Shown here piece by piece: positions 2,323-17,177 of a stretch of DNA of 20,269 bases. Numbering within the stretch: the stretch's first letter is position 1; every line of letters starts with the position of its first letter. Where the stretch lies: positions 1 through 20,269 of the IMG/VR virus record IMGVR_UViG_3300021964_000729, one strand, 5' to 3'. Source of the DNA: a virus. The position numbers and the translations under genes were made by a program. The notes beneath the pieces are model-generated. The model ran no database searches, had not been told where the DNA came from, and saw only the letters and a list, made by a program, of their open reading frames with translations.

Positions 2323-2748
2323 CTACACTAATTTAGCGTAGACCTTTGATGTTCCGTTTTTAAGAGTTTCATAAGATAATTCCATCTTTAATCCACCCTC
2401 TTTTTTATGAGATATGCCATCATCATTTATATCAGAACCATCGGTGTCTTTACCAAATCTTCCACCAAATTGTTTCACTTCGGCTGTCACTTTTCCATTG
2501 TCTCCTTCTAATGCTGCATCAGATACAGTTAAACCAATTCTTTCAAGTTTTTCTTTTAACTTGTCAAAAGCGAATTGAGGTTTTATGTATTCACAATCTG
2601 CAACAGAACCAACAAAAGCATTTACTCTTTTAAGTACATCAGGGTCATGTATGTTATGAACACCAATTACGCTATCTTCAACGCCATTAGCAGTCTCAAC
2701 TCCAACTCCATCAATACCTTCTTTTATGTGTTGTTTAAAAGTTTTCAT
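2323..2748 (-). CDS. Putative internal head protein with T4-like capsid-targeting leader
   Basis: 141 aa. The first residues, MKTFKQHIKE-G, match the T4 internal-protein capsid-targeting sequence MKTYQEFIAE-A nearly position by position: hydrophobic I8, x, E10, then a small residue at 11. In T4 the prohead protease gp21 cuts after that Glu. The rest contains VIGVHNIHDPDVLKRVNAFV (28-47), a motif I associate with small proteins of pelagiphages and T7-like marine phages, then a region with KQFGGRFG (92-99) and an acidic loop (DTDGSDINDDG). The start overlaps the stop of the small ORF upstream as ATGA. Likely packaged in the capsid (inference); mature function unknown. Confidence 0.75.
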   Translation of the reverse strand: MKTFKQHIKEGIDGVGVETANGVEDSVIGVHNIHDPDVLKRVNAFVGSVADCEYIKPQFAFDKLKEKLERIGLTVSDAALEGDNGKVTAEVKQFGGRFGKDTDGSDINDDGISHKKEGGLKMELSYETLKNGTSKVYAKLV

Positions 2749-2864
2749 TCTTTTTCCTCTGTTTTATTTTCTTCTTTTTCATCATCTTTAGGTTTAACTG
2801 CGACCAAATCTTCTTCAAAATCTTTGACATCTTCGTCTTTGTTAAACTGTTTAAATGTTTTCAT
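2745..2864 (-). CDS. 39-aa acidic peptide with MKTFKQF leader
   Basis: A short ORF filling the gap between two larger genes. It encodes 39 residues, starting MKTFKQFNKDED and ending in a run of Lys/Glu/Asp. The first seven residues are the same leader as in the next gene and as in the proteins starting at 8011 and 11561. Its TGA stop overlaps the next ATG (ATGA), and it begins 4 nt after the previous stop, so it fits the operon exactly. It could be a minimal capsid-directed peptide or a degenerate copy of a leader-bearing internal protein. The shared leader and tight spacing support it as real; no Glu-Ala/Gly cut site is present. Confidence 0.65.
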   Translation of the reverse strand: MKTFKQFNKDEDVKDFEEDLVAVKPKDDEKEENKTEEKE

Positions 2865-2868
2865 AAAT

Positions 2869-3108
2869 TTAACTAGTTGCTATATTAAGAGCCTTTTCTT
2901 TTTCTGCCGGCATAGGTTTCTTTTCATCTTTGCCTTTAGATAAAGCTAATAATTTATCTACTTGTTGTATAGCACCATAGACAGCATTTAGATTACTTTT
3001 CATATTACCTAAATCTTTTTCTACTTGTACTATTCTTTCTTTTGTAGTATTAAAGTCTTTTTCTAATACTGATCTTTCTTCTAATAATGTTTTTTCATCA
3101 ATATTCAT
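2869..3108 (-). CDS. 79-aa coiled-coil protein
   Basis: 79 aa, mostly one predicted coiled coil: residues about 4-58 show regular heptads of Leu/Val/Ile (LLEERSVLEKDF, IVQVEKDLGNMKSNL, VYGAIQQVDKLLAL), followed by a Lys/Glu-rich tail. AGGTAG precedes the ATG. No family recognised beyond general similarity to small coiled-coil phage proteins. It lies between a virion-type protein and leader-bearing small proteins, so a structural or scaffolding role is plausible but unproven. Confidence 0.65.
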   Translation of the reverse strand: MNIDEKTLLEERSVLEKDFNTTKERIVQVEKDLGNMKSNLNAVYGAIQQVDKLLALSKGKDEKKPMPAEKEKALNIATS

Positions 3109-3123
3109 AAACTACCTAATCTA

Positions 3124-3585
3124 TTATGCTAATACGTAACCATTACCAGCAATAACATTCCAATTACTATTTTTAAATAAACAAGTCACTGTCTCACCTG
3201 GTGCATTTAATGTGATAGTTGAATAACCTCTTAAATTAGCTGGTGTTATTGTTATCGCATTAGTACCACCTGTTGATACATTAATGATTGTTTTTATTTG
3301 TCCATCTGCACCGTCAGCCATAGCACATGAGTGTGTCGCTGAAGTTGCATTAATTTCTGTTATCGCAGTCGTCACATTTACTGCAGTAGTTGAAGAACCA
3401 TCTGCTGTAATTGCTTGTGAAGCTTGTTTTAAACCTAACCAAGATGGTATGTTATTAAATACATCTTCTGCTGCTATTTTTTTATTGATTGGTGTATTTG
3501 AAGGATCATCTACAACGTGAAATAAATCCACTGCTGCTAAAGAGTCACCTAAATCGGTCAAAGCCGTTACTTTTTTATCTGCCAT
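3124..3585 (-). CDS. Virion structural protein, marine phage type
   Basis: 153 aa. The N-terminal half (MADKKVTALTDLGDSLAAVD, then VDDPSNTPINKKIAAEDVFNNI) is a module I recognise from many marine phage virion proteins, often annotated structural or fibre-associated. The second half is rich in Thr, Ser, Ala and Asn with alternating beta-strand pattern (STGGTNAITITPANLRGYST, then CLFKNSNWNVIAGNGY), typical of a small beta-sandwich in a surface or fibre protein. The start has a strong Shine-Dalgarno (CAGGAG, 7 nt spacing). The region upstream holds a hairpin and a possible late promoter, so it may form its own transcription unit. Confidence 0.75.
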   Translation of the reverse strand: MADKKVTALTDLGDSLAAVDLFHVVDDPSNTPINKKIAAEDVFNNIPSWLGLKQASQAITADGSSTTAVNVTTAITEINATSATHSCAMADGADGQIKTIINVSTGGTNAITITPANLRGYSTITLNAPGETVTCLFKNSNWNVIAGNGYVLA

Positions 3586-3657
3586 TTTTTTCTCCTGTTA
3601 ACCCTTTCGGGAATGCTACTCTAGGTATATTCCTAGATCAATTTATTCATATAGTAT

Positions 3658-3686
3658 ATATAAGGGCAGTTTACCCGCCCTTATAT
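3658..3686 (-). terminator. Hairpin, likely transcription terminator
   Basis: A perfect 10-bp inverted repeat: ATATAAGGGC at 3658-3667 and GCCCTTATAT at 3677-3686, with a 9-nt loop. It sits 9 nt after the stop of the 97-aa virion gene and before the next gene. The stem has four G-C pairs flanked by A-T pairs, and downstream on the minus strand the sequence is AU-rich without a clean U run, so termination may be partial. Confidence 0.6.
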
Positions 3687-3695
3687 TAATTAATA

Positions 3696-3989
3696 TTAGG
3701 TATTACTTGTCATACAAACAAGTGTTTCACCTACAACTCTACTTGCTCTACCACCAGTACCAGTTGTTTTTAAAACCCAACCTTGGTGTGAACCTGCAAC
3801 AATCTCACCAGCTGCATAATTGAATAAACCAATTGTCACACCTGTAATAAGATTACTTTCAGTAGCGTTGTTAAATAATTTACCAGAACCTGCAGCTCCC
3901 ATATTTGAAGCCACTGGCGCTTTTTGTACTCTTGCGAGTGCCCATAAAGGTGCACTTCCAAAAGCATCTGTTTTTGCCCAACTTGACAT
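3696..3989 (-). CDS. Small virion structural protein
   Basis: 97 aa, no membrane segment or catalytic motif. It is rich in Gly, Ala, Thr and Ser, with a C-terminal part WVLKTTGTGGRASRVVGETLV (71-91) that matches the ending I know from small structural proteins of marine T4-like phages. GGGAGAG precedes the ATG by about 8 nt. A T4-type late promoter box lies 56 nt upstream of the start, and a hairpin follows the stop, so it may be a short late transcript of its own with read-through to the genes beyond. Its position in the particle is not known. Confidence 0.7.
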   Translation of the reverse strand: MSSWAKTDAFGSAPLWALARVQKAPVASNMGAAGSGKLFNNATESNLITGVTIGLFNYAAGEIVAGSHQGWVLKTTGTGGRASRVVGETLVCMTSNT

Positions 3990-4044
3990 AGTATTCTCTC
4001 CCTTGTTAAATTGTTAAGGTACTCAATTTAGTTATGTATGTGTA

Positions 4045-4052
4045 TATTTATA
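4045..4052 (-). promoter_or_regulatory. T4-type late promoter (TATAAATA)
   Basis: Minus strand reads CTTATAAATATAC, containing an exact TATAAATA box. T4-like phages use this box with the gp55 sigma factor for late genes. It is 56 nt before the ATG of the 97-aa virion protein and just past the stop of the nucleotidase gene, the expected place for a late promoter. The other clear copy, at 14226-14233, shares the extended form CTTATAAATATA. Confidence 0.75.
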
Positions 4053-4055
4053 AGA

Positions 4056-4553
4056 TTAGAAGCCTAGTTTTTTAAGTTCTGAAATGGCTCTTGTCGCTGA
4101 TGTGAAAGTGATACCTATACCACCTTTTGCTTTGAATTGTGTTGTATTTTTGTCGTAATCATCAATAAGAATAGTAGGTTGACCAGCGTTCATCGCATAG
4201 TTTTGTTTGTCTCGTCTTCTTACTAGATTAATTCTACCACCTGTAATACCTAAATTCTTTCTACACCACGCTGACTTACCTGGTATACAATTAGGATCAA
4301 ATGTTTTTTCTAAATACGCTGATAAAATATGTGGATTATACTTCTTAACAAAGTTATAAAGAGTTCTACCTGGTGTATTCCATGGCATATTCGCCCAAAA
4401 ATTAGGAGTGTCTAATACAGTATCCCATTTTCTATTACTAGGTATCTTAACCCAGGCTTCTTTTGACTTTCCTGTGGCCTTTCTTATAGCCGCACCAAAG
4501 TCACAAAGTACACCGTCCATATCTAGGTATATTCTTGGTAAATCTTTTCTCAT
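4056..4553 (-). CDS. 5'(3')-deoxyribonucleotidase-like HAD hydrolase
   Basis: 165 aa, HAD superfamily, NT5C-like. Motif I is IYLDMDGVLCDF (8-19) with nucleophile D11 and acid/base D13; motif II is ILSAY with S78; K116 in RRRDKQNYA fits motif III; motif IV is LIDDYDKN with D131/D132. Length is typical of the small bacterial and phage members. The family removes phosphate from deoxynucleoside monophosphates, so it could recycle or remove dNMPs during infection; substrate cannot be read from sequence. WANMPWNTPG (53-62) is typical of phage members. It has its own promoter at 4564-4592 and no Shine-Dalgarno, and the predicted transcript starts about 4 nt before the ATG. The start cannot be moved downstream to the next Met (12) without losing nucleophile D11. 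Confidence 0.85.
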   Translation of the reverse strand: MRKDLPRIYLDMDGVLCDFGAAIRKATGKSKEAWVKIPSNRKWDTVLDTPNFWANMPWNTPGRTLYNFVKKYNPHILSAYLEKTFDPNCIPGKSAWCRKNLGITGGRINLVRRRDKQNYAMNAGQPTILIDDYDKNTTQFKAKGGIGITFTSATRAISELKKLGF

Positions 4554-4563
4554 AGTGTACTTA

Positions 4564-4592
4564 AATATACCACATTATTGACCTTTTGTCAA
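4564..4592 (-). promoter_or_regulatory. Sigma70-type promoter of the nucleotidase gene
   Basis: TTGACA (4587-4592), 17-nt spacer, TATATT (4564-4569) on the minus strand; only one mismatch to the bacterial consensus. The expected start of transcription is about 4557, leaving a leader of about 4 nt before the ATG at 4553. A 15-nt dyad, TTGAC-N5-GTCAA (4578-4592), covers the -35 box and could be an operator. The host RNA polymerase probably uses this promoter early in infection, unlike the late units on both sides. Confidence 0.8.
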
Positions 4593-4623
4593 CAGGTATT
4601 TTGGTAAATGTTCTTGGTTTGTT

Positions 4624-5133
4624 CTAGTTTTTGTAGTCAACTTTAGGTTCTGTTTCAACTTTTGTCAACTTTGAACCCGAATCAGCGATTTTCTTTGTCT
4701 CTTTCTCGCCTTTAGTCATTGAAGCTTTAGTTTTCTTATCGTTGATCTCATCACCATGCTGATCTGCTTCATTCTTCATAGCCTTTTCTAAATCTTCTTT
4801 CTTACCTTTTTCTTTGTAACCACTAGCGAATGCTGCTTTTCTTTGAGCATCTGAAGCGAAACCTTCTTTTTGATCTTCTTTATCTTTGATCGCTTTTTGT
4901 AAAGCTGGTGGCAACTTCTTTTGTGCCGCAGTGATCTCGTTTTTCGCTTTATATTTACTATCTATCTTGTTAAAGAAATCTTTTTTTTCTTTTGGTGACA
5001 TAGAGCCGATACCTTTACCAGCTTTATCTAGTTCTTTTTTGAACATATCTTGGTAAGCATTATCGTTTAATTTTTTGGCTTGATTTGCCATCATTTCTTC
5101 AATGCTACCTGGTTTGTGTTTTAAATAACTCAT
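4624..5133 (-). CDS. Lys-rich phage protein, probable virion/capsid-associated
   Basis: 169 aa, highly charged and low in aromatic residues. It contains two motifs I recognise as recurring in marine phage structural proteins: GSMSPKEKKDFFNKIDSKYK (43-62) and, at about 73-110, KLPPALQKAI followed by EGFASDAQRKAAFASGYK. The tail is acidic and basic by turns and looks disordered. AGAGGGA, lying within the end of the previous gene, is the ribosome-binding site. It closes the long late operon that begins near 14233. Role not known; co-occurrence of its motifs with head-associated proteins suggests the capsid. Confidence 0.7.
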   Translation of the reverse strand: MSYLKHKPGSIEEMMANQAKKLNDNAYQDMFKKELDKAGKGIGSMSPKEKKDFFNKIDSKYKAKNEITAAQKKLPPALQKAIKDKEDQKEGFASDAQRKAAFASGYKEKGKKEDLEKAMKNEADQHGDEINDKKTKASMTKGEKETKKIADSGSKLTKVETEPKVDYKN

Positions 5134-5135
5134 TT

Positions 5136-7694
5136 TTATTTCCCTCTTACTTGTTTCGCTAAATCTTTGTCAGCGCCACCCCAGGTACCTGAGGATTTTG
5201 TAACGAAAGAGTTTACTCTAGCGAAAGCCCATTGTTGTTGACTTGCGCCAGGTCTATGTCCACTTTTCCAAGCAGCCATACCTCTATCGTAAACTTTTTT
5301 TAATATTGAATAAGGCATACCAGATTTCTCAGCCTTCTTCTTTAAACCTGCGATTGTTTCTACATACAATCTTCTATCTTCATTTATATTATCTTCATTA
5401 AATTTTTGTTTTGCTTTTTTTATTGCATCTCTAGTACCCATACCAGTTCTTAATAATTCATTAACATATGATTGTGCTTGATTAGATAATTTTTTAAATG
5501 CTCTATCTAAATCTTTAGAAGTGACACCTAATGTTTTATTATGTACAGTAGGATTGAAAGCACTTGTATTTTCTTTCATACCTAGTTTTTTCTTAACCAT
5601 ATTAGTCGCAGTACCAAATCTTACAGCGTCACCTTTTTCTTTACCATATCTATCTTTAAAGTCTTTCTTTGGTAGATCATCTGCTACTTTGTGTACTTGT
5701 TTAATTTGACTTTTAGTTAAATCAGCTTCTTTCATATCGCCTTTGAAATCAAAGTCAATCATATCACCTTTTACTTTTTTTCTAGCTGCGTCTTCTATTG
5801 CTGCCATATCTACTTTAAAGTTTTTTACAGGTACAGTTACATTTACAGTTTTCATACCTGATGATGTTTTCATTTTAACTTTAAACTCTGTAGGTTTAGT
5901 TGACTCTTCAATGTCATTTTTTAACATCTTCTTTGCTAAATCTTTATTCTTACCTTTTAGAGCGGCTTTCTTTTGAGCATCATAATACTTAATCATATCT
6001 TTAGCTCTTTGTATTCTTTTCTCTTTATCGCTCATAGCCTTTTCAGGAACATAATCCATATTTAAATGTTTCTTTAATTGTTGAAACGATCCAGGTTTGT
6101 CATCAAAACCAAAGTGTTCTTTTGCATAAGCAACTAGGTCTTTTTCTGCGCCTGTAAATGTGACTTCATACTCAGCACCATTAGGGCCACCTGGTGTTAC
6201 TCTCGCAACTTTAATATTAAATTTTGCTGTTTCTCTTTTTAATGCTGGAATAGATATACCTGATATATCAGATACTACCGTTGCTTCGTTTACTTCTTTT
6301 TTCACTTCTTCTTTTTCTTTTTTATCTTTGAAGTGTTTGTAAGCGACACCAACTGTCAAAGGTACTTCCCCTGTGTCAGGATTAGGTTCTGGTTTCACAG
6401 CTTTGTTTTTTTCATTCTCTAATTTAGTTTTTAACATTTGTATTTGATCTTTTAAAGATGCAATCGTATTATCTTTGTTTTCTGATTCTTTCTTTTCGGT
6501 ATCTTTAACTTCTTCTTTTGGTTTGTCATGTGTGTAACCCATCTTAGCATATTTCTCGTGGTCTTCTGGAGTTTTTGCTTCTACTTCTTTACCACTTTTA
6601 GGGTCATACATTTTATGTGGATATTCAACTTCTTCTTTTACTTCAAAGTTTCTTTTCATACCCATTTTAGCTAGGTTAATCATGTTCTTACCTTGAGAGG
6701 CAACGTATTTCATAAACTTATCCATACCAGCTTGAGTTTTAAAACCTGATATATCAATACCTTGTGAAGTCATTTTTGCTGTCACACCAAACTCTTTTGC
6801 TTTATTCATTATCTCACTTGATGATTGTTCTTCTATTTCTTCAAACTTACCTGTCTTTTTATAAACTTTGTTTCTAGCAAGTGTAGTAACAAATGGTATT
6901 TTTGCTTTAGTTAATTGTTTTAATGAAGCCAAATCAAGTCTATCTAAATGTTTTGAAAGAGCTTTAGCTTGTTCTGGTGAAATTGTTTTTGGCATTGTAC
7001 TATATGATTTTTGTAATCTCTTAATCATATCTGAAGTAAATTCAGCAATGTCCTGATATACTTCTTCGCCTAAAATACTTTTAACTGTTTTTAAAGGTAG
7101 TTTCATAAGTTTAGCTATTTCTTCAGCACTCTTACCTTCTTGGTCTGCTGTAAAAATATCTTTCATTCTACCTTCTTCAATTTCATCACCAGCAAATAGT
7201 GGTGATTTAATTGTTGACATAGTTTTTTTAAATACTTTATCTTTGTATTGTTTAATTTTTTTCTTTAATACAGCTAGTTTAAGTTTATCAGATACTTCGT
7301 TTACTTCTTCATTTACACTTGGATCGTTTTCCATATAGTGAGCAACACTGTTCATATAATCTTCAGCAGAAGTTATTTTAGATTGTACCCAAGCTTCTAT
7401 ATCGTAATCGTTACCTTTTGATTGTAGAATGGTCTGCATTTTTTCAGCGTATTGTGAAATTGTTTTTAATTGACCAATTGCCATAGAAACCTCATGGTCT
7501 CCCTCTTCTTTTAATTTGTCAAAGTTCTTTTTAAAATAATCGTATGCTAATGTTTTATCTCTAGTTGAATAAGCAACTTTACCATCTTTGTCTAATACAT
7601 TGTATTGACCACCTATTGACATTGAAACATATGGTTTAATTGTTGCCTCTTGTACTTCTCTAATAGCATCTGACATTGATTTTCTGTATGTCAT
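5136..7694 (-). CDS. 852-aa modular virion protein with predicted internal protease sites
   Basis: 852 aa from the ATG that overlaps the upstream stop as TAATG; the frame is open to 7709 only through a TTG. The protein is a string of short phage modules joined by acidic linkers: DHEVSMAIGQLKTIS with WVQSKITSAEDYM (66-114), GRMKDIFTADQEGKSAEEIAK (175-195), YPHKMYDPKSGKEVEAKTPE (358-377) with MGYTHDKP, a VVSDISGISIPALKRETAKF region (473-492), a QIKQVHKVADDLPKKDFKDR region (663-682), and a C-terminal domain at about 774-850 (LKKVYDRGMAAWKSGHRPG), which I think is DUF5824. Sites of the T4 prohead-protease type fall between modules: VQE|A (16), IEE|G (174), VNE|A (470), MKE|A (656). It may be processed into about four pieces in the prohead. 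No catalytic domain recognised. Confidence 0.8.
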   Translation of the reverse strand: MTYRKSMSDAIREVQEATIKPYVSMSIGGQYNVLDKDGKVAYSTRDKTLAYDYFKKNFDKLKEEGDHEVSMAIGQLKTISQYAEKMQTILQSKGNDYDIEAWVQSKITSAEDYMNSVAHYMENDPSVNEEVNEVSDKLKLAVLKKKIKQYKDKVFKKTMSTIKSPLFAGDEIEEGRMKDIFTADQEGKSAEEIAKLMKLPLKTVKSILGEEVYQDIAEFTSDMIKRLQKSYSTMPKTISPEQAKALSKHLDRLDLASLKQLTKAKIPFVTTLARNKVYKKTGKFEEIEEQSSSEIMNKAKEFGVTAKMTSQGIDISGFKTQAGMDKFMKYVASQGKNMINLAKMGMKRNFEVKEEVEYPHKMYDPKSGKEVEAKTPEDHEKYAKMGYTHDKPKEEVKDTEKKESENKDNTIASLKDQIQMLKTKLENEKNKAVKPEPNPDTGEVPLTVGVAYKHFKDKKEKEEVKKEVNEATVVSDISGISIPALKRETAKFNIKVARVTPGGPNGAEYEVTFTGAEKDLVAYAKEHFGFDDKPGSFQQLKKHLNMDYVPEKAMSDKEKRIQRAKDMIKYYDAQKKAALKGKNKDLAKKMLKNDIEESTKPTEFKVKMKTSSGMKTVNVTVPVKNFKVDMAAIEDAARKKVKGDMIDFDFKGDMKEADLTKSQIKQVHKVADDLPKKDFKDRYGKEKGDAVRFGTATNMVKKKLGMKENTSAFNPTVHNKTLGVTSKDLDRAFKKLSNQAQSYVNELLRTGMGTRDAIKKAKQKFNEDNINEDRRLYVETIAGLKKKAEKSGMPYSILKKVYDRGMAAWKSGHRPGASQQQWAFARVNSFVTKSSGTWGGADKDLAKQVRGK

Positions 7695-8011
7695 TATAGT
7701 GTACTCCAAACATTATCCCAATTAATTACTTTTCTTTTTAATTGGTTTTTTAAAGTTAATTCTAATCTTTGTCTAATTGTTATTGCATCATTACCTATTA
7801 CACTAGCAAAATCGTTATGTATTTTTTCTAGTGATGAATAAGCATCAGCTAATTTCTTGTCGTTTAATATCTTATCAGCGATGTATCTTCTTGCTTCAAA
7901 GTGATCGTTTCTCGCTGTTTTAGCTCGTAGATACTGCAGATGAGTTTCACTCGCCTTGGCTTCTAATAAACCATAATCGCCTTTTTTAAATTGTTTAAAT
8001 GACTTACTCAT
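7694..8011 (-). CDS. Small protein with FKQF leader and LLE|A processing site
   Basis: 105 aa from the ATG at 8011, which has a strong ribosome-binding site (GGAGAGGAA); the open frame to 8026 uses only a TTG. It starts MSKSFKQFKKGDYGLLE-A: the FKQF leader shared with the proteins at 2748, 2864 and 11561, and then L15-L16-E17|A18, a match to the T4 prohead-protease rule (L/I)-x-E|A. The rest is helical and charged (EARRYIADKILNDKKLADAY). After cleavage an 88-residue protein would remain. It is coupled by TAATG to the 852-aa gene. Predicted internal head protein; mature function unknown. Confidence 0.75.
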   Translation of the reverse strand: MSKSFKQFKKGDYGLLEAKASETHLQYLRAKTARNDHFEARRYIADKILNDKKLADAYSSLEKIHNDFASVIGNDAITIRQRLELTLKNQLKRKVINWDNVWSTL

Positions 8012-8078
8012 CTTCTTCCTCTCCAAATTGATCTTCGTGTGGCGTGTTTTCTGATAACTCTTTGATAAACTTATCCAT
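8004..8078 (-). CDS. 24-aa acidic micro-ORF (possible)
   Basis: An ATG just after the stop of the large fusion gene opens a 24-codon frame (MDKFIKELSENTPHEDQFGE and four more acidic residues) whose TAA overlaps the start of the next gene. It fills the gap exactly, as other genes here do, but its ribosome-binding site is weak and the region also has to carry the strong Shine-Dalgarno of the next gene. It may be a real peptide or only a coupling spacer. Confidence 0.3.
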   Translation of the reverse strand: MDKFIKELSENTPHEDQFGEEEDE

Positions 8079-8080
8079 TT

Positions 8081-10534
8081 CTATATCTTGTCCATCATTC
8101 GTTTTACCACTTCGTCTAGTTTTTCTCGCCATATTTCTTTGTATCTTTCCTTATATTTATCTATTGTAGCATCCGACATTGCCCATTCTTTTACATCTTT
8201 TTCTTCTACGCTACTTTCTTTATCTAGTCTAAATTTACTAAATGAATTGATAACTCTTTTTAAATTGTCTTTAGGATTACTTGGTTTATACTCACCACCT
8301 TGATGTTTAGGGTCATAAGTAGGTTCTCCTGGAGTAATTTTCGCAGTGTAATTAGCGTAATCATGTCCTATATCGTATGCTTCTTTTTGTTCGCCCTGCG
8401 CTCTCTTTAGTTGAGCAGTCGTAGGTGCACCTTTTTCACCTTTTTTTCTCATTCGTTCACCTCTTTTTCTTTTCATGTGTATATTGTGCCACAGTCCTTT
8501 ACCTTTTTCGTCTAACTTATCAACTACTTCACCATACATTTGTTTAAACTTTTTAGTATGAATTGATGGTTTAGTCTTGGCATCTTTATCACCTGGTGCA
8601 GGTTTATAGTCGGTATCACCTTTTTTGTACTTATCTTTTTTAAAGTGATCTGCTCTTTTATCTTTGACATCTTTTGATAAACCTGAGTAATATTTTTTGG
8701 GTTGTGATCCTTTTTTCTTTTTGACATCTTTGTCTTGTGGAGTTGCATCTAAATCCTCTTGTATTGAATCTACAGCTGTGAAACCATAGTCAACATTTGT
8801 ATCATATTCTCTCACTTCTACCTCTCTATCAGCGGCTACAGGTAAACAATCCCATATCCACGCTTTGTGTAAATTGTTATTATTGTCTTCTATTACGATA
8901 TAGTTTGTACCTCGTCTTTTGACTGTACCTGATATATCTTCTTTTACATAATCTACTTTATCGTTAATGTTAAAGATCATTTCTCTAACATATAAATCTC
9001 TTACTTGGTTTTGTTCAAATCCTTCTAAACTAGCGACTGGTCTGTAAGTTCCTAAACCTGGTCCACCCATCATTGAATAACTAGCGGCAAGTTTCATACC
9101 TCGTCTTACTTGTTTCATAAGACCATCAGCATCTCTAAATGTATTTGGTAATCCTTTTTTAAATGAAATTATGTCACCTTTCTCAGCAGCAGCTCTCATC
9201 TTACTAGCACTCATACCAGTTGCGCCTTCAGCATCAGGATCACGCTCACCAGCAGATACTACTTTTATATTATCAAACTTATAGTAACCATGCCTTGACT
9301 TGACATCATTATATCTTTTTAGCAAAGTATCAAACTCTCTAATTCTATCACTACCAGCGACCATTACAATATTATTAAACTTACCATTTAATCTGACTAG
9401 TATATCTAATACATTGTTTGATGGATTGATCTCTATGTTTCTAGCATGTTGTGGAAAAATCTTTTTCATAAAAGATAATTTTTCTCTAGGTGATAGTGGA
9501 TTCTTTTTAGGGTCTTCACTTCTACTTAAATAAATTTTGTAATTATTACTTTGTGATTTAACTTTGTCCATTAGTTTTAAATGACCAATAGTTGGTGGAT
9601 TAAATCTACCAAAAGCAAATGCGATAGTATTAACTGCTTCAGTTTTTAAACTATCAATCTCATCATCTGTGACTTTACCATCTTCTAAAACTTCTTTACA
9701 TTTCTTATAGAATTTTAAGTAGTGATATTTTTCTAGGTACTTGTAAATAATATTTTTAGGTAGTTTATGTTTCTTACCAAATTGTCTTATCTCATCTGGC
9801 GTCATATCGTCATTATAAGCACTTTGTCTTTGTTTGACTACATCATCACCTATATCTACTAATACCTCTATACTGTCTTCTATCTCGTCTAATTTAGTAT
9901 TAATTTTGTCTTGTAAGTTTAATACATCATCTGTACTTAAATCTTTTAGTTCTTCGTAATCTATAATATCTCTTGCTAGTTCACCTTTGACTACATCTAT
10001 TTCTTGTACTTTTTTTTGGAAGTCTGCCTCATACTTTTCAGGATCAAAAGTATCTTCTGTAGGTTTTCTTATAAACTCATTCTCATCAATATCAAATACA
10101 CCATCTGCCATAGCGTCATTTTTTTTCTTTAACTCTGGGTCTGTGATTACATAATAGTTTACAGGGTGTTTTGTACCTGGTACGAGTTTACCATTTATAT
10201 CTCTTAAACTAGACGCTAGTTCTTTTCTAGCTGTCTCTCTATCTTCTTCTGGTACATCAAATAAAACATTGATGTCTAAATCAGCATCGTCTCTATATTT
10301 TTTTGTAAGTATAGAGCCAATCAAAGAATATTTTTTAACAGGATATTTTTCTTGGAAACTATCTATCTGATCTAATATCATATCCACAACTACTTTTTTT
10401 AGTTTTGGATTATCTGTATCAGCATCATCAAATACACCAGGCGCATATCTTTGTCTAGGTATATCAATGATACTATCTTTTAATACACTTGGTTTATCTT
10501 TTAGATATTTAAATAAGTAATCTTTAAAACTCAT
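8081..10534 (-). CDS. Pol-beta-type nucleotidyltransferase / NMNAT-like adenylyltransferase fusion with phage structural tail
   Basis: 817 aa, multidomain. Residues about 45-130 look like a pol-beta superfamily nucleotidyltransferase: LIGS (71-74) then DLDINV (85-90), the hG[GS]...Dh[D/E] pattern. Residues about 300-480 are a HIGH-type cytidylyl/adenylyltransferase: AFGRFNPPTIGH (307-318) and TGMSASKMR (439-447), equivalent to the (H/T)xGH and ISSxxxR motifs of NMNAT-like enzymes. The C-terminal third carries motifs recurrent in phage virion proteins: KKYYSGLSKDVKDKR (613-627), TDYKPAPGDKDAKTKPSIHT (641-660) and GLWHNIHMKRKRGE (680-693). Candidate protease sites lie in linkers (IQE593, LDE676; TE299-A300 just before the second enzyme domain). 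The substrate could be a nicotinamide nucleotide; this is not settled. It overlaps the kinase gene by 4 nt. The enzyme-plus-virion-module layout suggests packaging in the particle. Confidence 0.85.
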   Translation of the reverse strand: MSFKDYLFKYLKDKPSVLKDSIIDIPRQRYAPGVFDDADTDNPKLKKVVVDMILDQIDSFQEKYPVKKYSLIGSILTKKYRDDADLDINVLFDVPEEDRETARKELASSLRDINGKLVPGTKHPVNYYVITDPELKKKNDAMADGVFDIDENEFIRKPTEDTFDPEKYEADFQKKVQEIDVVKGELARDIIDYEELKDLSTDDVLNLQDKINTKLDEIEDSIEVLVDIGDDVVKQRQSAYNDDMTPDEIRQFGKKHKLPKNIIYKYLEKYHYLKFYKKCKEVLEDGKVTDDEIDSLKTEAVNTIAFAFGRFNPPTIGHLKLMDKVKSQSNNYKIYLSRSEDPKKNPLSPREKLSFMKKIFPQHARNIEINPSNNVLDILVRLNGKFNNIVMVAGSDRIREFDTLLKRYNDVKSRHGYYKFDNIKVVSAGERDPDAEGATGMSASKMRAAAEKGDIISFKKGLPNTFRDADGLMKQVRRGMKLAASYSMMGGPGLGTYRPVASLEGFEQNQVRDLYVREMIFNINDKVDYVKEDISGTVKRRGTNYIVIEDNNNNLHKAWIWDCLPVAADREVEVREYDTNVDYGFTAVDSIQEDLDATPQDKDVKKKKGSQPKKYYSGLSKDVKDKRADHFKKDKYKKGDTDYKPAPGDKDAKTKPSIHTKKFKQMYGEVVDKLDEKGKGLWHNIHMKRKRGERMRKKGEKGAPTTAQLKRAQGEQKEAYDIGHDYANYTAKITPGEPTYDPKHQGGEYKPSNPKDNLKRVINSFSKFRLDKESSVEEKDVKEWAMSDATIDKYKERYKEIWREKLDEVVKRMMDKI

Positions 10535-11214
10535 ATTCTTTTTTTAGCTTGTAATTCGTTGGCTATCCATTGTTTTGCTGTTAAATTTTGAGGTGTTGCT
10601 CTTAATTGACCTCTAATAAACTTCGCAGCTGTATTAAGTGTTTGTGTTACTAGTTCTTTTTCACTTCTATTATTATCAATAATTAACATTCTATTTGGAC
10701 TAAAAATTCTTTGAAACTGTCCTATGTTTCTTTGTACACCATTCCAACTATTAGTTACAATATATTCTGGTATTGATCTAGGTCTATTTTGATTTCTTTC
10801 TAGCGCCACTTCTAAACTTGTATTAACAAAGATCATATAACTATCATAACCTATTTGATCTAACATTCTTTTTTGTGTGTTAATTACATTTAAATCTCTA
10901 CCAGTTGCGTCTATGACTAAACCTAATCTACCTTGAACATATGTGTCTAATGCAGTCGCTGTTGTCATCTTTGCTTTTGCTCTTACTATGTTTCTAAAGT
11001 ATTCTTCTTCATCTGGCATCTTTAAAGATAGACCAGCTTTTTTTAAACCTCTTTCAAATGCTGCGTCAGAGTTTACTAACTTTAAACCAGTGCCACCAAA
11101 GGCTGATCTAGTTACAAATGTTTTACCACTACCAGGTCCACCAGCCAAGAAAAAGGCTTTGAATATACCTGGGTCGTAAACACCCTCTCGCAATATTTGA
11201 TTTAGTTTTTTCAT
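10531..11214 (-). CDS. Zeta-toxin-like P-loop kinase with capsid-targeting-like leader
   Basis: 227 aa. Walker A is GGPGSGKT (25-32) after a hydrophobic strand; an acidic region VNSDAAFERGLKKAG (47-61), the strand LVIDATGR (98-105) as Walker B-like, and an Arg-containing lid (ALERNQNRPRSIPE) complete a zeta-toxin/polynucleotide-kinase-like fold. The substrate is not evident: sugar nucleotides, nucleic-acid ends or a small molecule are possible. The N-terminus MKKLNQILRE-G has L8-x-E10|G11, the same geometry as the T4 internal-protein leader, so it may be packaged, cut after residue 10 and injected. It is coupled to both neighbours by 1-nt and 4-nt overlaps. Confidence 0.85.
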   Translation of the reverse strand: MKKLNQILREGVYDPGIFKAFFLAGGPGSGKTFVTRSAFGGTGLKLVNSDAAFERGLKKAGLSLKMPDEEEYFRNIVRAKAKMTTATALDTYVQGRLGLVIDATGRDLNVINTQKRMLDQIGYDSYMIFVNTSLEVALERNQNRPRSIPEYIVTNSWNGVQRNIGQFQRIFSPNRMLIIDNNRSEKELVTQTLNTAAKFIRGQLRATPQNLTAKQWIANELQAKKRI

Positions 11215-11561
11215 TAGTTATTTACTTTTGCTCCAGCTCTCCATTGATAACAAGACCAATATCTAGCTTTTGTTTTTGGTCCTGGATTATCACAATTATG
11301 TCTAGCTCTAAATGACTTTCTTCTTGCTGGGTCGTCTCTCTTAATTGACAATCCAGTCGTATCACCAAATGATACTTTCTTTACTTTGTCGCCATCTTTT
11401 ACATATACATAAAACTTTTTAGAGCCACCTCTAATTGGATCGTTTAATTTTACTTTTTTCCCTTGGTATTCTGCTTCTTGTAAAGGCTCATTTTCGTGTT
11501 CAAATATTACTTCGTCACAAGCCTTATCGTATTCTTCAAATTGTTTAAATGTTTTTGGCAT
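11214..11561 (-). CDS. Small phage protein with FKQF leader, LQE|A site and RxxFRARHxC motif
   Basis: 115 aa. It starts MPKTFKQFEE; a second acidic stretch ends in L27-Q28-E29|A30, an exact (L/I)-x-E|A prohead-protease site, so about 29 residues could be removed. The remainder is a compact conserved module: GGSKKFYVYVKDGDKVKKVS (45-64), then RRKSFRARHNCDNPGPKTKA (80-99) and YWSCYQW (101-107). C90, C104 and H88 could bind metal or form a structural site. I have seen this module in many marine phage proteins, often at the end of larger structural proteins, with no established function. GGAGTAAC is the ribosome-binding site, located inside the micro-ORF before it. Confidence 0.8.
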   Translation of the reverse strand: MPKTFKQFEEYDKACDEVIFEHENEPLQEAEYQGKKVKLNDPIRGGSKKFYVYVKDGDKVKKVSFGDTTGLSIKRDDPARRKSFRARHNCDNPGPKTKARYWSCYQWRAGAKVNN

Positions 11562-11602
11562 TAGTTACTCCATCCTTTTCTTTTTCTTTTCTTAATATTC
11601 AT
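11561..11602 (-). CDS. 13-aa basic micro-ORF (possible)
   Basis: Between two genes lies an exact 14-codon frame, MNIKKRKRKGWSN and a stop. Its ATG overlaps the upstream stop as TAATG and its own TAA overlaps the next ATG as TAATG. The 42-nt interval is therefore fully used by one frame. The same bases carry the Shine-Dalgarno of the next gene. It may encode a very basic peptide or simply keep ribosomes moving across the gap. Confidence 0.35.
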   Translation of the reverse strand: MNIKKRKRKGWSN

Positions 11603-12951
11603 TAACTATGCTCCTGCCAGTTCAACGCACCCACGGCGTCATCATTGTTTGTTGTTGCTCGTATCGCAATTGTAAATATATCACCTGTTGATTGACCTAA
11701 ACTTCTAGTTAATTGTAATTGATGATTTAAATGTGTTAAATCTATGTGTGATGCTCCGCCTTTATTATCACCCACAAATACACCTTCCATAATTTTTTTA
11801 CCACCTGTTAATGCTGTTGCTGATAAATCATATTCAACATTACTATCTGAACCTGCTGATACAAAACTAGCGCTTGTTAAACTTGTTACATTTGTAAATA
11901 TTTTATATTGAAAAGCCGCTTGTTGTAATCCGTATAAATCTGCCATAACAGGAACAACAACACCATCTGTTCTACCACTTCTTAATCTAATACTAATTAA
12001 TGGTGTGTCTGCTGTATCTGAAATATTTTTACCTGTAATCGCTGTTGATATAGAACGTGAAATAGATGTATTATTATAACCACCTTCACTCATTACACTT
12101 GAACAAATTTGCTTTAATGTTGATGATGAACCTGTATCATCTGTATTTGTAATTTCATATCTACAAGGTAAAGTTGCTGTAGTCATATATGTAGATGTAA
12201 TTTCATTTGCGTGATGAAATATATGTACTGGAATAAACTGTCCATTAATTACAAAACCAACTCTTACTGAACCAACACCTAACCACTCAAAATCTGACCA
12301 AAGTATTTGTGCTTTTGTTAAGTCTAAAGTATAACCTGAAACACCATCACCATCTAAAGCGTCAACGTTCCAGTTGGCTTGTAAAACTCTTGTGTTAACA
12401 ACTGAACCAGATACTTTACTTCTTTTTACAATATAGATACTATTGTTTTCTTGTTCTAAATAGACACCATTTTCAGCACCAAAATAACCTACTCTTTGTC
12501 TTAAATAAGTTTTTGGACTATTCATAACAAACGTATTTAAAACTAATAATGATTTACCTGGTTGATAACTGAATACTCTTTTTGTTTCTCTTATAATACT
12601 ATCACCCGAAGATTCACCAACAGTTATATCCATAAGACCTTGATTAGCGTTGTGAGCTGAACCAGAGTTACCTGAATTATCTGTTTCACTTTCTGACCAC
12701 TTATCTGTGTTATCACCATATCTTAATGATGAATCAAATAATGTATGTGGTTGTGAAGTTCTTAATCTTCCAAATGCGTCATTAGAAGTTGAACGATTTG
12801 AATAACCAATCGCTTGTGTAATTGTAACTGGAAAAGGATTTTCTGTTGTGACTACTTCACCATTTTTATTGGCAATCATTGGCACTTCAAAGACTGTTCT
12901 ATCGTGTCCTCTTGGTCCAAATACTTGTGTATCTTTTCTAAAATTTGCCAT
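11602..12951 (-). CDS. 449-aa virion structural protein, marine phage type
   Basis: 449 aa from the ATG overlapping the upstream stop as TAATG; the extra open codons to 12960 need a TTG and are not preferred. The N-terminal half contains AFGRLRTSQPHTLFDSSLRY (63-82 or close), a signature I know from widespread structural proteins of marine T4-like phages. The rest is beta-rich with many Thr, Ser, Asn and Gly and few charged residues, as in head decoration, tail or fibre proteins. No signal peptide and no protease site at the start. It is the one clear large structural protein in the operon behind the 14226 late promoter. Its exact place in the particle is not determinable here. Confidence 0.8.
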   Translation of the reverse strand: MANFRKDTQVFGPRGHDRTVFEVPMIANKNGEVVTTENPFPVTITQAIGYSNRSTSNDAFGRLRTSQPHTLFDSSLRYGDNTDKWSESETDNSGNSGSAHNANQGLMDITVGESSGDSIIRETKRVFSYQPGKSLLVLNTFVMNSPKTYLRQRVGYFGAENGVYLEQENNSIYIVKRSKVSGSVVNTRVLQANWNVDALDGDGVSGYTLDLTKAQILWSDFEWLGVGSVRVGFVINGQFIPVHIFHHANEITSTYMTTATLPCRYEITNTDDTGSSSTLKQICSSVMSEGGYNNTSISRSISTAITGKNISDTADTPLISIRLRSGRTDGVVVPVMADLYGLQQAAFQYKIFTNVTSLTSASFVSAGSDSNVEYDLSATALTGGKKIMEGVFVGDNKGGASHIDLTHLNHQLQLTRSLGQSTGDIFTIAIRATTNNDDAVGALNWQEHS

Positions 12952-14165
12952 TAGTTCCAACCTTTCGGCATAGTAAAGTTCGCTCTACTAAATTCCATTC
13001 TATCTACTAACTTCACAGCGCCAGCAACTCTATCAACAGCAACAAATCCTTCTGGACTTGTTACTCTATAACCAGTAGAAGTTCTTAAAAAATGTCCCAC
13101 ACTTTGTATCTCACTCATTTTATTAATGAGAAAGTTCTTGGCATTCTGTAATGTAACATGAGATGCGATAGCCATTACCAATGCGTTCTTGTTTCTATCT
13201 ATAAATTTTGTATTAGTTGCTAATATATCTTTATATTTTTGTTTTCCCTTTTCAGTTTTTTTAGCATCTATTTCTGCTTGTACAATATTAATATAATACT
13301 CTCTAAACATATCAACTAAATTTCTAACTTTGGCCATGTGACCTTGCGTGTTTCTTATGTAGTGATTAAAGAAAGTTTTTAATCTAAACCCTACACCTAG
13401 ACCATCAGCAGATGTCTCGCTCATTTTATCTAATAAAGGTGCTGCCTTTGATAGAGAACCTTCAGCCATTCTTAACTTGGCATTAAATTGTGCAAGTTCA
13501 CTTCTAGTTAGTTTCGCAGAACCAGATACGTCTCTATAACCAGCACTCGCTAGAAATACATTAGTTGCTCTACCTCTTACTGTACCAAAACCAGCAGTCA
13601 TACTGTCTAAAGTTTTACCTGAATATTTTGTGTGAAAGACAATACCCATTCTAGCTCTACTAATCTGTCTACCAATAGATGAGTTTACAGGAACAGCATA
13701 TGTGATTGTGTTTGGTGTAAATGAAATCATATCGTCACCATCTAAATTTATTTTTTTTAAATCTGATTGTGAAAATAAAAAGTCACCTTGTAATACGCCT
13801 TTGATACCTAGACGTGATAATTCTTTTAATGCGATAGATAGTTTAGACGCTAGTTCGCCAGAGTGATTTTTTCTTATATCTGCGTTAGTATAATTTACTT
13901 TAGCGTTCTTATTAAATACTGATTTTGTTCCGACAAAGAATTTGCCATTTTCTGGATTAATACCACAGATGATAGCTGGAGCGCCATCCCACTTAACTGT
14001 CATATTAACTTTTTTACTAGAAGAACCAGCGAGCATATTTCTCACCGATCGTAAAAAGTTTAACGCATTCTCACCACCCTTTGATCCACGATTTATTATA
14101 TCGTCCTCTAGGTGTTCTAAATGTGTGTTCCTATCTGTTGTTGTAAATCCTTTAAAACTAAACAT
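12951..14165 (-). CDS. DUF6267-like protein with ligase-type KWDG motif
   Basis: 404 aa. The N-terminal part THLEHLEDDIINRGSKGG (14-31) and NFLRSVRNMLAG (36-47) is typical of a phage family that I recall as DUF6267. Then K58-W-D-G61 in VKWDGAPAIICG matches motif I (KxDG) of covalent nucleotidyltransferases such as DNA/RNA ligases and capping enzymes; FFVGTKS (76-82), GVLQGDFLF (123-131) and GIVFHTK (174-180) could be the following strand motifs. In ligases the motif IV acid is usually Glu (here D128). Activity is therefore uncertain, and the match may be structural ancestry only. The C-terminal half is helical. GAGAG lies before the ATG; a TATAAATA late promoter is 61 nt upstream. Confidence 0.8.
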   Translation of the reverse strand: MFSFKGFTTTDRNTHLEHLEDDIINRGSKGGENALNFLRSVRNMLAGSSSKKVNMTVKWDGAPAIICGINPENGKFFVGTKSVFNKNAKVNYTNADIRKNHSGELASKLSIALKELSRLGIKGVLQGDFLFSQSDLKKINLDGDDMISFTPNTITYAVPVNSSIGRQISRARMGIVFHTKYSGKTLDSMTAGFGTVRGRATNVFLASAGYRDVSGSAKLTRSELAQFNAKLRMAEGSLSKAAPLLDKMSETSADGLGVGFRLKTFFNHYIRNTQGHMAKVRNLVDMFREYYINIVQAEIDAKKTEKGKQKYKDILATNTKFIDRNKNALVMAIASHVTLQNAKNFLINKMSEIQSVGHFLRTSTGYRVTSPEGFVAVDRVAGAVKLVDRMEFSRANFTMPKGWN

Positions 14166-14225: not shown

Positions 14226-14233
14226 TATTTATA
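14226..14233 (-). promoter_or_regulatory. T4-type late promoter (TATAAATA)
   Basis: The minus strand reads CTTATAAATATAA with an exact TATAAATA box, 61 nt before the ATG of the KWDG protein and just after the stop of the small basic protein. It shares 12 bases with the other late box at 4045-4052. It should drive the long late operon to about 4624. A weaker sigma70-like pair (TTGATT, 17 nt, TATAGT) lies between this box and the ATG and might add early expression. Confidence 0.75.
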
Positions 14234-14236
14234 AGA

Positions 14237-14494
14237 CTAAACTCTTGTCCATAAGAATTTAGGTATGCCGCCATTGGGTTGCCATACTTTATGTTTGTTT
14301 TGAAACTTAACTAATTTATGTGCGTCTTCTTCAAAAAAACATTCACTTATTACATTTTTGTTTGGCTTCTCTATGACTTGCCATATAATATCTTTACCTC
14401 TCTTTACCATTTTCTTTGTATATGATAAATCTGGTTGTTCATTATTTGGCCTTCTATCGCCTTTGTGAAATCTAACTTTTTGTTTTTTAGCCAT
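14237..14494 (-). CDS. Small basic protein downstream of the helicase
   Basis: 85 aa, rich in Lys, Arg and Trp (MAKKQKVRFHKGDRRPN at the start; WQVIEKPNKN, FLWTRV near the end). Its ATG overlaps the stop of the helicase gene as TAATG, so it is coupled to it. It may be a nucleic-acid-binding accessory to replication, but no family is recognised. The transcript of the uvsX unit probably ends soon after it, because a late promoter starts within 4 nt of its stop. Confidence 0.65.
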   Translation of the reverse strand: MAKKQKVRFHKGDRRPNNEQPDLSYTKKMVKRGKDIIWQVIEKPNKNVISECFFEEDAHKLVKFQNKHKVWQPNGGIPKFLWTRV

Positions 14495-15873: not shown

Positions 15874-16198
15874 CTATAAACAACTTTCCATTTTTTAATT
15901 GTTCTTCAACACATTCAACTAATATATCACCAATATAATTTCTAAAATCATCTGACTTTATATCTTCTTCATTAGGATTAGCCATTATATCATAAGTAAA
16001 TTTTAACGGTATTTCACCACTATCATTTTCTGTTTGAGAAAACTTGACATTATTGTACTTATAGATAATACCTTCGTACTGGCCATCCATAATTTTGATA
16101 CAACTAAAGTCATCGCCTTGTCTTTGAGCAAAGGCGTATCTTTTAATTGGCGTCTTCTTCGTCTGATCCGTATTGGAATTTTCGTTTTGCTTGTTCAT
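15866..16198 (-). CDS. Small protein in the position of T4 gene 40
   Basis: 110 aa from the first ATG, which lies 56 nt inside uvsX in another frame. There is no clear Shine-Dalgarno for this ATG, so translation may rely on coupling or start further in; residues about 17-110 ([20 protein letters not shown] onward) look like the conserved part, with a beta-strand-rich fold and an acidic C-terminal helix ([14 protein letters not shown]). In T4 the gene between uvsX and 41 is 40, of similar length, linked to prohead initiation. I see no decisive similarity to gp40, so the link is by position only. It ends in an 8-nt overlap with gene 41. Confidence 0.65.
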
Positions 16199-17177
16199 CT
16201 ATTTTGTCTAACACTTCCTTTGTAAAATATTTTTCTGGATTATCGTTGATGTTCTTACCAAAGACTTTAGACCCATCTGGCATTTCATATCTTGTAGATA
16301 CTTTCTTAAAGATACCAGCTTCTTCACCGAGTTCTATAAGACCATAATATTTGTCTAAACCTTTTTTGTAAGTAAGTTTTACATCTATTTGTGCGTTTTC
16401 TTTTGTTAACCTAGATTTAAAATTTTTACAATGTATAATGTTTCCAACAACCTCGGTACCTTCTTTGTCTTTTCTTTTACCAAGATAGATGATTGATGAG
16501 GCTGCGTATTTTAAACCACTACCACCGCCCATTTCTTTTTGAGGGAACATTGAACCTATGACATCATATGTGTGGTTAGTCATAATCATTGGTATATTTG
16601 CTTTACCAAGTTTCAATGTTAATACTCTAAATGTTGACTTGACTATTTGTGATCTAGTCATATCTCTTGTTTCTTTACCTGCGGCAGTATCTTCCATTTC
16701 TTTTGTTGTAGATAACATACCTAAACTGTCTAGTACAAACATCAAAGGTTTTCTACTCTTTTCTGCTTGTTCAATATACTTGTCTAATATTTTAATTGAT
16801 TGACTTCTAAATTCTTGTACTGTGGCAACTGGTACAATAACCATTCTTTTAGAATCAATACCTCTACTCTCAATCATATCTTTTGAGATAGCACTTTCTG
16901 ATTCAAAGTAGATAATACCTGCCTCAGGATCCTTATCTAAAAATGCTTTACATATACCTAGTGCGAAAAATGTTTTACCTGTTGCGGCTTCACCAGCGAT
17001 TGCAGTAATCTTGTTTCCTGGCATACCACCATAGATACTACCAGATAATAATGCATTAAATGAGTATGAGCCTGTGTCTATAAAACTTGTAACATCAGCG
17101 CTGTCAATACCATCACTTACTAAACCAGCATATTCATTACCAGTTTCTTTAATTATATCTTTTAAAAAATCACTCAC
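16143..17177 (-). CDS. uvsX: UvsX, RecA-like recombinase
   Basis: 344 aa. The start is GTG with an ideal GGAGGA ribosome-binding site. RecA-family motifs: Walker A GEAATGKT (62-69), catalytic Glu in YFESESA (E92/E94), Walker [12 protein letters not shown] (145-155), and the loop region [20 protein letters not shown] (199-218) carrying L2-type sequence, with [11 protein letters not shown] for filament contacts. The acidic C-terminal tail (GSDEEDAN) resembles the regulatory tail of T4 UvsX. It forms filaments on ssDNA and drives strand exchange for recombination-dependent replication. A perfect-consensus host promoter 29 nt upstream (17206-17234) implies early, strong expression. Confidence 0.95.

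Follow-up and report, generated by a model that had tools for sequence, protein, structure and literature searches.

The window analysed here is the whole of IMG/VR record IMGVR_UViG_3300021964_000729, a viral genome fragment of 20,269 nt. All 28 genes considered in it lie on the minus strand, as do all features described below. Our subject is a run of genes, from about position 14165 down to 672, whose products begin with leaders resembling those of the internal head proteins of phage T4. The genes that it holds, their order (UvsX, gp41, the phrog_1645 virion structural protein, DUF6267, a kinase and a nucleotidyltransferase) and the best protein matches place the window in a T4-like phage of the Kyanoviridae type. 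Among named phages, Pelagibacter phage HTVC008M is closest to it, with 49.6% identity in DUF6267 and 57% in the kinase. The leader genes adjoin gp41, and a counterpart island sits between gp41 and gp61 in HTVC008M, Melnitz-3, S-SM1, S-PM2, Syn9 and S-SCSM1.

Four leaders combine hydrophobic residues near positions 4 and 7 with an [LI]xE end (a slash marks the predicted cut). The 141-amino acid (aa) product of gene 2323-2748 starts MKTFKQHIKE/G (leader at 2719-2748, cut before G11), and that of gene 10531-11214, a P-loop kinase of the zeta toxin/polynucleotide kinase (PNK) type, starts MKKLNQILRE/G (11185-11214, cut before G11). The other two contain FKQF: MSKSFKQFKKGDYGLLE/A in gene 7694-8011 (7961-8011, cut before A18), and the long MPKTFKQF...LQE/A in gene 11214-11561 (MPKTFKQFEEYDKACDEVIFEHENEPLQE, 11475-11561, cut before A30), which has a layout like that of T4 ipI. 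An earlier note, made from the window's letters alone, had described all four, and the positions and residue numbering that it gave are borne out for every leader quoted in it. It had also assigned a leader without a site to the 39-aa open reading frame (ORF) 2745-2864 (MKTFKQF, 2844-2864) and to gene 672-1145 (MPKKTFKEY, 1119-1145), as we find as well; relatives of the ORF start MKRFKQF, MKRFKEF, MKTFKTF or MKTFKTY, and the 672-1145 protein matches phrog_727. Its claim of a VQE/A site in the 852-aa product of gene 5136-7694 stands in part: the motif is present at the start (candidate leader MTYRKSMSDAIREVQE, 7647-7694; the cut would precede A17), but it is weak, P3 being V rather than L or I, and few relatives keep it.

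Three genes were added to this set. The 817-aa nucleotidyltransferase of gene 8081-10534 begins with MSFKDYLFKYLKDKPSVLKD (10475-10534) and reads LKD/S where relatives have E/S. The DUF6267 protein of gene 12951-14165 begins MFSFKGFTTTD (14133-14165), and alignment of its relatives indicates that this lineage lacks [LI]xE; F2, F4, K5 and G6 are invariant among 40 aligned rows, F7 is kept in at least 90% of them, and the Melnitz homolog starts MINFSKYITE/D, that is, with a site. The product of gene 1138-1488 carries the candidate leader MPKHYKEMMDELINKMDE (1435-1488), followed by D; its relatives have MKSFKELAQDIVNNMDE or MKSFKEIAQDIVSRMEE in place of that leader, ahead of the same DAP body. 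Measured against the four leaders described first, gene 8081-10534 differs at P1, and the site is missing from genes 12951-14165, 672-1145 and 2745-2864. In predicted models, the score of the predicted local distance difference test (pLDDT) is below 50 at residues 1-15 of DUF6267 and at residues 1-4 and 9-27 of the gene 2323 product (for which the model as a whole is poor, pLDDT 60), as would be expected for a detachable tail. Within the run, gene 11602-12951, which encodes the phrog_1645 virion structural protein (E 1.2e-126), has no leader.

Conservation of the leaders was followed in 146 IMG/VR loci plus HTVC008M; the loci come from 196 stretches encoding the kinase and 596 encoding DUF6267, of which the best 80 each were taken. 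Related ORFs were trimmed at the first conserved body residues, and starts were picked by rule among the near-body start codons. The relatives are not independent of one another, close ones being over-represented. For the kinase, 126 of 133 ORFs could be anchored, giving 55 distinct leaders of 7 to 22 residues, every one of which ends in [LI]xE. P1 is fixed (entropy 0 bit) and P3 takes only L or I (0.72 bit), whereas P2 and P4-P12 vary almost freely (2.3-3.1 bits). The gene 7694 family (51/51 anchored) shows [LI]xE[AVQ] in 28 of 28 distinct leader stretches and joins unlike leaders, MSKSFKQFKKGDYGLLE/A or MTKTLKEMRMDLQE/A, to one body. In the gene 11214 family, 62 of 93 homologs were anchored and all 33 distinct leaders have [LIV]xE. 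For gene 2323, 21 of 22 distinct leaders keep [ILV]xE at residues 8-10; in its alignment (20 rows) E10 is invariant and a variable, gap-rich linker follows directly after the site. Finally, the gene 8081 family (117/132 anchored, 55 distinct leaders) has E at P1 in 53 and D in two, the window and locus L085, with [LIVM]xE in 39. Leader sequence and length thus vary across related contigs while the boundary [LI]xE is retained, and drift everywhere but at P3 and P1 is the pattern expected from a protease site.

These data bear on the idea that the N-termini are alike through paralogy, or through a shared N-terminal domain with another function such as interaction or a degradation signal, LxE being incidental. 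Near-identical FKQF stretches in several adjacent window genes do make a recent duplication of leaders likely. The bodies, however, belong to unrelated families, unlike leaders precede the same body in different phages with only P3 and P1 retained, and the layouts correspond to both T4 leader types, so that we regard this explanation as very improbable. A per-locus tally of several families was not used as evidence, being crude: it breaks down where a frame is open for more than 110 codons upstream or where gene 11214 homologs are divergent (38 loci have at least four of the five families, 14 of these with sites in at least four). At L044, L049 and comparable loci the reading frame that holds the kinase match extends a long way beyond it in the upstream direction, into sequence resembling, as we take it, the end of an adenylate kinase; the leader may in these cases be internal to a fusion.

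The earlier note had proposed searching related genomes for the prohead protease gp21, and the long or complete relatives do encode it. A gp21 gene (PF03420) was found in 5 of 12 records, namely HTVC008M, S-SM1 and 3 of 10 IMG/VR relatives, the IMG/VR records searched all being shorter than 87 kb and the seven misses being contigs of 37-65 kb. All five further phages (Atu_ph07, Melnitz-3, S-PM2, Syn9 and S-PRM1) have it too. Major capsid proteins of the clade read FLGE/I (HTVC008M), ILTE/T (S-SM1), FLSE/A (Melnitz-3) and LLTE/A (S-CREM2) at the end of the N-terminal region, and this LxE makes the same protease specificity plausible.

Three leader patterns were then fixed and compared with internal windows and with 300 N-terminal shuffles. 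The strict short-leader pattern matches 3 of the 28 window genes versus 0.06-0.07 expected (0/300 shuffles), the window sequence having itself shaped the patterns. In Melnitz-3, a genome independent of that choice, 5 of 221 proteins match it, versus 0.58 expected from internal windows and 0.74 from shuffles (0/300 shuffles). A relaxed pattern gives 12 of 198 in HTVC008M, where 5-6 are expected. We take these whole-genome counts as moderate support only and give more weight to the conservation of the site among orthologs. Leaders also concentrate between gp41 and gp61: aromatic leaders occur in 7/23 genes of this interval versus 11/198 elsewhere in Melnitz (p 0.0008) and in 5/22 versus 10/176 in HTVC008M (p 0.015), leaders with a site in 6/23 versus 21/198 (p 0.044) and 6/22 versus 16/176 (p 0.021), respectively. 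This enrichment was not relied on because loose expressions match many ordinary proteins.

The strongest support for packaging comes from published virion mass spectrometry (MS). Table 3 of the S-CREM2 paper (PMC10665884) lists 52 virion proteins. The strict pattern, which predates our use of the S-CREM2 sequence, was applied unchanged to all 219 coding sequences of this phage, some N-termini being known before the count. Matches number 4 among the 52 detected proteins and 1 among the 167 that were not detected (Fisher p=0.012); with the structural and endolysin rows set aside, 26 detected proteins are left, of which 4 match (p=0.0012). The four are a SAM hydrolase (MKDFDSFLEE), gp13 (MKDLHSFLTE), an APH-like kinase (MKRFDAFLTE) and a cytidylyltransferase (MKNFSSFLTE); the fifth match is a 55-aa ORF not detected by MS. 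The relaxed pattern gives 8/52 versus 9/167 (p=0.025); among its matches outside the detected set is the S-CREM2 UvsX. Also among the detected proteins are gp136 (MQTFSMFFSE/D), which falls outside the strict pattern, and gp160, a phrog_727 protein like that of window gene 672-1145. The Cas9-like gp12 (7704-10313 of the locus L167), likewise detected and outside the strict pattern, has the leader-like stretch RFASFMAE/A at residues 18-25 behind a 17-residue extension.

Two other cyanophages provide parallels. PMC3037559 adds T4-GC190 of S-SM1, a putative citidylyltransferase, to the proteins detected in virions; this protein (SSM1_190) starts MKKFSAFLNE/A and matches PF01467, as does window gene 8081-10534. 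According to PMC9602691, the NMNAT of S-SCSM1 is a virion protein; it is gp91, starts MKSFLQFLKE/A and shares phrog_395 with window gene 8081-10534. Island genes of S-SCSM1 annotated as virion proteins are gp89, gp90, gp91 (NMNAT), gp92, gp93, gp95 and gp97; gp89 starts MDSKTFNSLSE/A, and gp90, gp92, gp93, gp95 and gp97 lack a clear leader.

Such data also address the possibility that the leaders belong to core or assembly proteins of the prohead, comparable to T4 gp67 and gp68, which are degraded and expelled at maturation instead of being retained. Some leader ORFs are indeed small and charged (the 39-aa ORF 2745-2864 and gene 1138-1488), and in Melnitz-3 a small gene between the portal and gp21 genes (25258-25506 of locus L159; 125258-125506 of the record) starts MSKTLSQFKQELPE/K and may, from its sequence and place, encode a core protein that has this type of leader. 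Yet the members include several conserved enzymes (the kinase, the nucleotidyltransferases, the Melnitz RimK-like protein), and MS finds leader-bearing enzymes in mature virions. We consider this alternative unlikely.

The best reading, as the earlier note had proposed, is that the gene run encodes a family of internal head proteins of a T4-like marine phage, packaged by means of their leaders and trimmed by gp21: the site is kept while leaders drift, relatives encode gp21, and leader-bearing homologs occur in virions. We put its probability at about 0.8. The leader, through its hydrophobic residues near positions 4 and 7, would dock each protein on the scaffold core during prohead assembly, so that the protein becomes enclosed; gp21 would cut after [LI]xE and free the mature protein inside the head; and the freed cargo would leave the head with the DNA at infection. 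This cargo would consist of the zeta/PNK-like P-loop kinase, a fusion of Pol-beta-type and cytidylyl/NMN-adenylyl-type nucleotidyltransferases, DUF6267, and small proteins of no assigned function. By analogy with the known systems, packaging in this phage appears highly probable and trimming of the members that have a site is quite probable; delivery into the host, argued from T4, we favour with less assurance. In T4, a D at position 10 stops processing and leaves targeting unaffected (PMC9026906). On this basis we predict that the window's 8081-10534 protein, with its LKD, and DUF6267, which lacks a site, enter the head and stay untrimmed.

Several observations weigh against this reading. The gp21 gene is absent from the 20,269-base fragment. 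Two sites in the window are weak (LKD in 8081-10534 and VQE in 5136-7694), and DUF6267 has no site there and no leader in S-PM2, S-PRM1 and S-SM1. In the gene 11214 family, 31 of 93 homologs are unanchored, many of them with other N-termini. The S-CREM2 p-value is modest, and detection by MS means presence in virion preparations and says nothing on leader removal. One of the three strict matches in the window is UvsX (16143-17177), hardly a cargo and likely a false positive, useful as such for a control, and HTVC008M is enriched neither for the strict pattern (1/198 versus 0.60 and 0.71 expected) nor for the leader alone. The UvsX match and the HTVC008M count are also what one would expect if amphipathic N-termini rich in K, E, F and L yielded such motifs by chance, without selection. 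Retention of [LI]xE in 55 of 55 kinase leaders whose other positions vary makes chance very unlikely, and both the Melnitz excess and the association with MS detection in S-CREM2 speak against it; we give this explanation next to no credence.

As to the cargo families, the product of gene 10531-11214 is a P-loop kinase by its matches to Zeta_toxin (E 2.8e-10), AAA_33 (1.7e-9) and phrog_505, polynucleotide kinase (6e-6); among PDB sequences it matches zeta toxin (E 0.0011). Gene 8081-10534 combines a Pol-beta-type nucleotidyltransferase with a cytidylyl/NMN-adenylyl-type domain (phrog_395, PF01467), and the 817-aa protein has no match among PDB sequences. In DUF6267, K58-W-D60-G61, E372-G373-x-V375 and K385 are invariant (40 rows). 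We take KxDG to be ligase motif I, and the EGxV- and KxV-like stretches to be motifs IV and V. The Pfam matches include no ligase model, a profile search of PDB sequences returned three unconvincing matches only, and Foldseek gave nothing below E 0.2, its best match (E 0.21) being an unrelated protein. RNA and DNA ligases come up repeatedly in the VIA-align fold comparison, with Z values (4.5-5.5) under the trusted level; the predicted model thus gives a weak structural hint that DUF6267 may be ligase-like. The protein is not named in any paper of the literature searched. The gene directly before DUF6267 starts MQGFKTFLSE/A in Melnitz-3 (12203-13288 of locus L157) and MLSFTGYSNLSE/A in HTVC008M (3767-4825 of L147); it has no Pfam family in either phage, and the window holds a different gene there (14237-14494). 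Melnitz-3 also has, outside the gp41-gp61 island, a RimK-like ATP-grasp protein (82-1131 of L157) with MTQKFSQFITE/E, a candidate virion-borne protein-modifying enzyme on this sequence evidence.

Together, a kinase, a ligase-like protein and two nucleotidyltransferases would be a fitting set for repairing RNA or NAD as the phage enters. We offer as a tentative and rather improbable extension that abundant marine T4-like phages bring along a ready set of head enzymes (a kinase that heals ends, the nucleotidyltransferases, ligase-like DUF6267), loaded through capsid targeting sequence (CTS) leaders, the leader being a general, swappable address tag. If so, head enzymes would act in the first minutes, before phage genes are read, for instance to make good the loss of RNA ends or NAD to host defences, and newly acquired genes would become cargo by adopting the tag (Melnitz RimK; the SAM hydrolase, the kinase and perhaps Cas9 of S-CREM2). 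No description of such leaders in marine T4-like phages, or of their link to virion enzymes, was found in the literature searched, which mostly excludes subscription journals (e.g. the S-PM2 and Syn9 proteome papers), and the papers using the term 'capsid targeting sequence' include, by title, none on marine phages. The leaders offer a sequence rule by which candidates for virion cargo can be named in marine T4-like phages, most of whose genes have no assigned function. They would account for the NMNAT-like enzymes, kinases, SAM hydrolase and other non-structural proteins in cyanophage virion proteomes (PMC9602691 and PMC10665884), and they make the injection of phage proteins beside DNA a testable question.

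The earlier note had placed all these genes behind late promoters, a claim that has no statistical support. Exact copies of the T4-late-promoter-like box TATAAATA occur twice in the window, at 14226-14233 upstream of the DUF6267 gene 12951-14165 and at 4045-4052 upstream of gene 3696-3989; both are well placed ahead of genes, and 4.3 are expected by chance. The argument was therefore dropped. Scans of the window for sigma-70 promoters (57 sites versus 51.8 expected) and terminators (5 versus 4.2) likewise gave no excess over shuffled sequence.

Propeptides are also cut in giant phages such as phiKZ and SPN3US: a gp21 homolog cuts head proteins after glutamate, and some of these are ejected into the cell (PMC9026906, PMC5512222). 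The likeness of those propeptides, and of polyvalent or ejected proteins, to the window leaders lies in the cut after glutamate, by description only. Giant-phage propeptides are longer than the T4-type leaders seen here, and their cargo is different. In Agrobacterium phage Atu_ph07 (MF403008), eight adjacent genes at 4484-12976 of locus L161 begin M(K/R)W(E/N/H/Q/D)(Q/D)L(T/N)E, most continuing with YRGM or YRGI; one is fused to the kinase family of window gene 10531-11214, and four of five scanned have no Pfam match. From its sequence, this tag looks like an independent use of the same logic, with W replacing F.

Closer to the window are the NMNAT/cytidylyltransferase virion proteins of S-SM1, S-SCSM1 and S-CREM2, which are homologous to the central domain of the 8081-10534 product and carry T4-like leaders; in S-SM1 and S-SCSM1 the gene neighbourhood is the same as well. 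Their leaders have a full LxE whereas the window gene has LKD. The cyanophage virion papers report NMNAT-type proteins in virions, and in their accessible portions mention no leader.

The closest model is T4 itself. Targeting by its leader depends on residues 4 and 7, and processing on residues 8 and 10; ten residues suffice, and the leader alone can bring a foreign protein into the capsid (PMC9026906). Read directly, the T4 record gives MKTYQEFIAE/A for ipII and ipIII and MKTFKEFTSTTTPVSTITE/A (MKTFKEF...ITE/A) for ipI. Cut positions are marked in these three leaders where we presume them to lie. Comparison with this record upholds the likeness of the window's short leaders to MKTYQEFIAE/A, and both T4 layouts recur in the window, the short one in MKTFKQHIKE/G and MKKLNQILRE/G and the long one in MSKSFKQFKKGDYGLLE/A and MPKTFKQF...LQE/A. 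Common to T4 IPI, IPII and IPIII and to the window are the [LI]xE cut motif and unrelated bodies under like leaders. The T4 class, however, consists mainly of small basic proteins, whereas that of the window, as predicted from its genes, includes conserved enzymes (the kinase, the nucleotidyltransferases and DUF6267) clustered between gp41 and gp61. The targeting mechanism is already known from T4; what would be new, going by the literature searched, is its proposed use for a large enzymatic cargo in marine phages.

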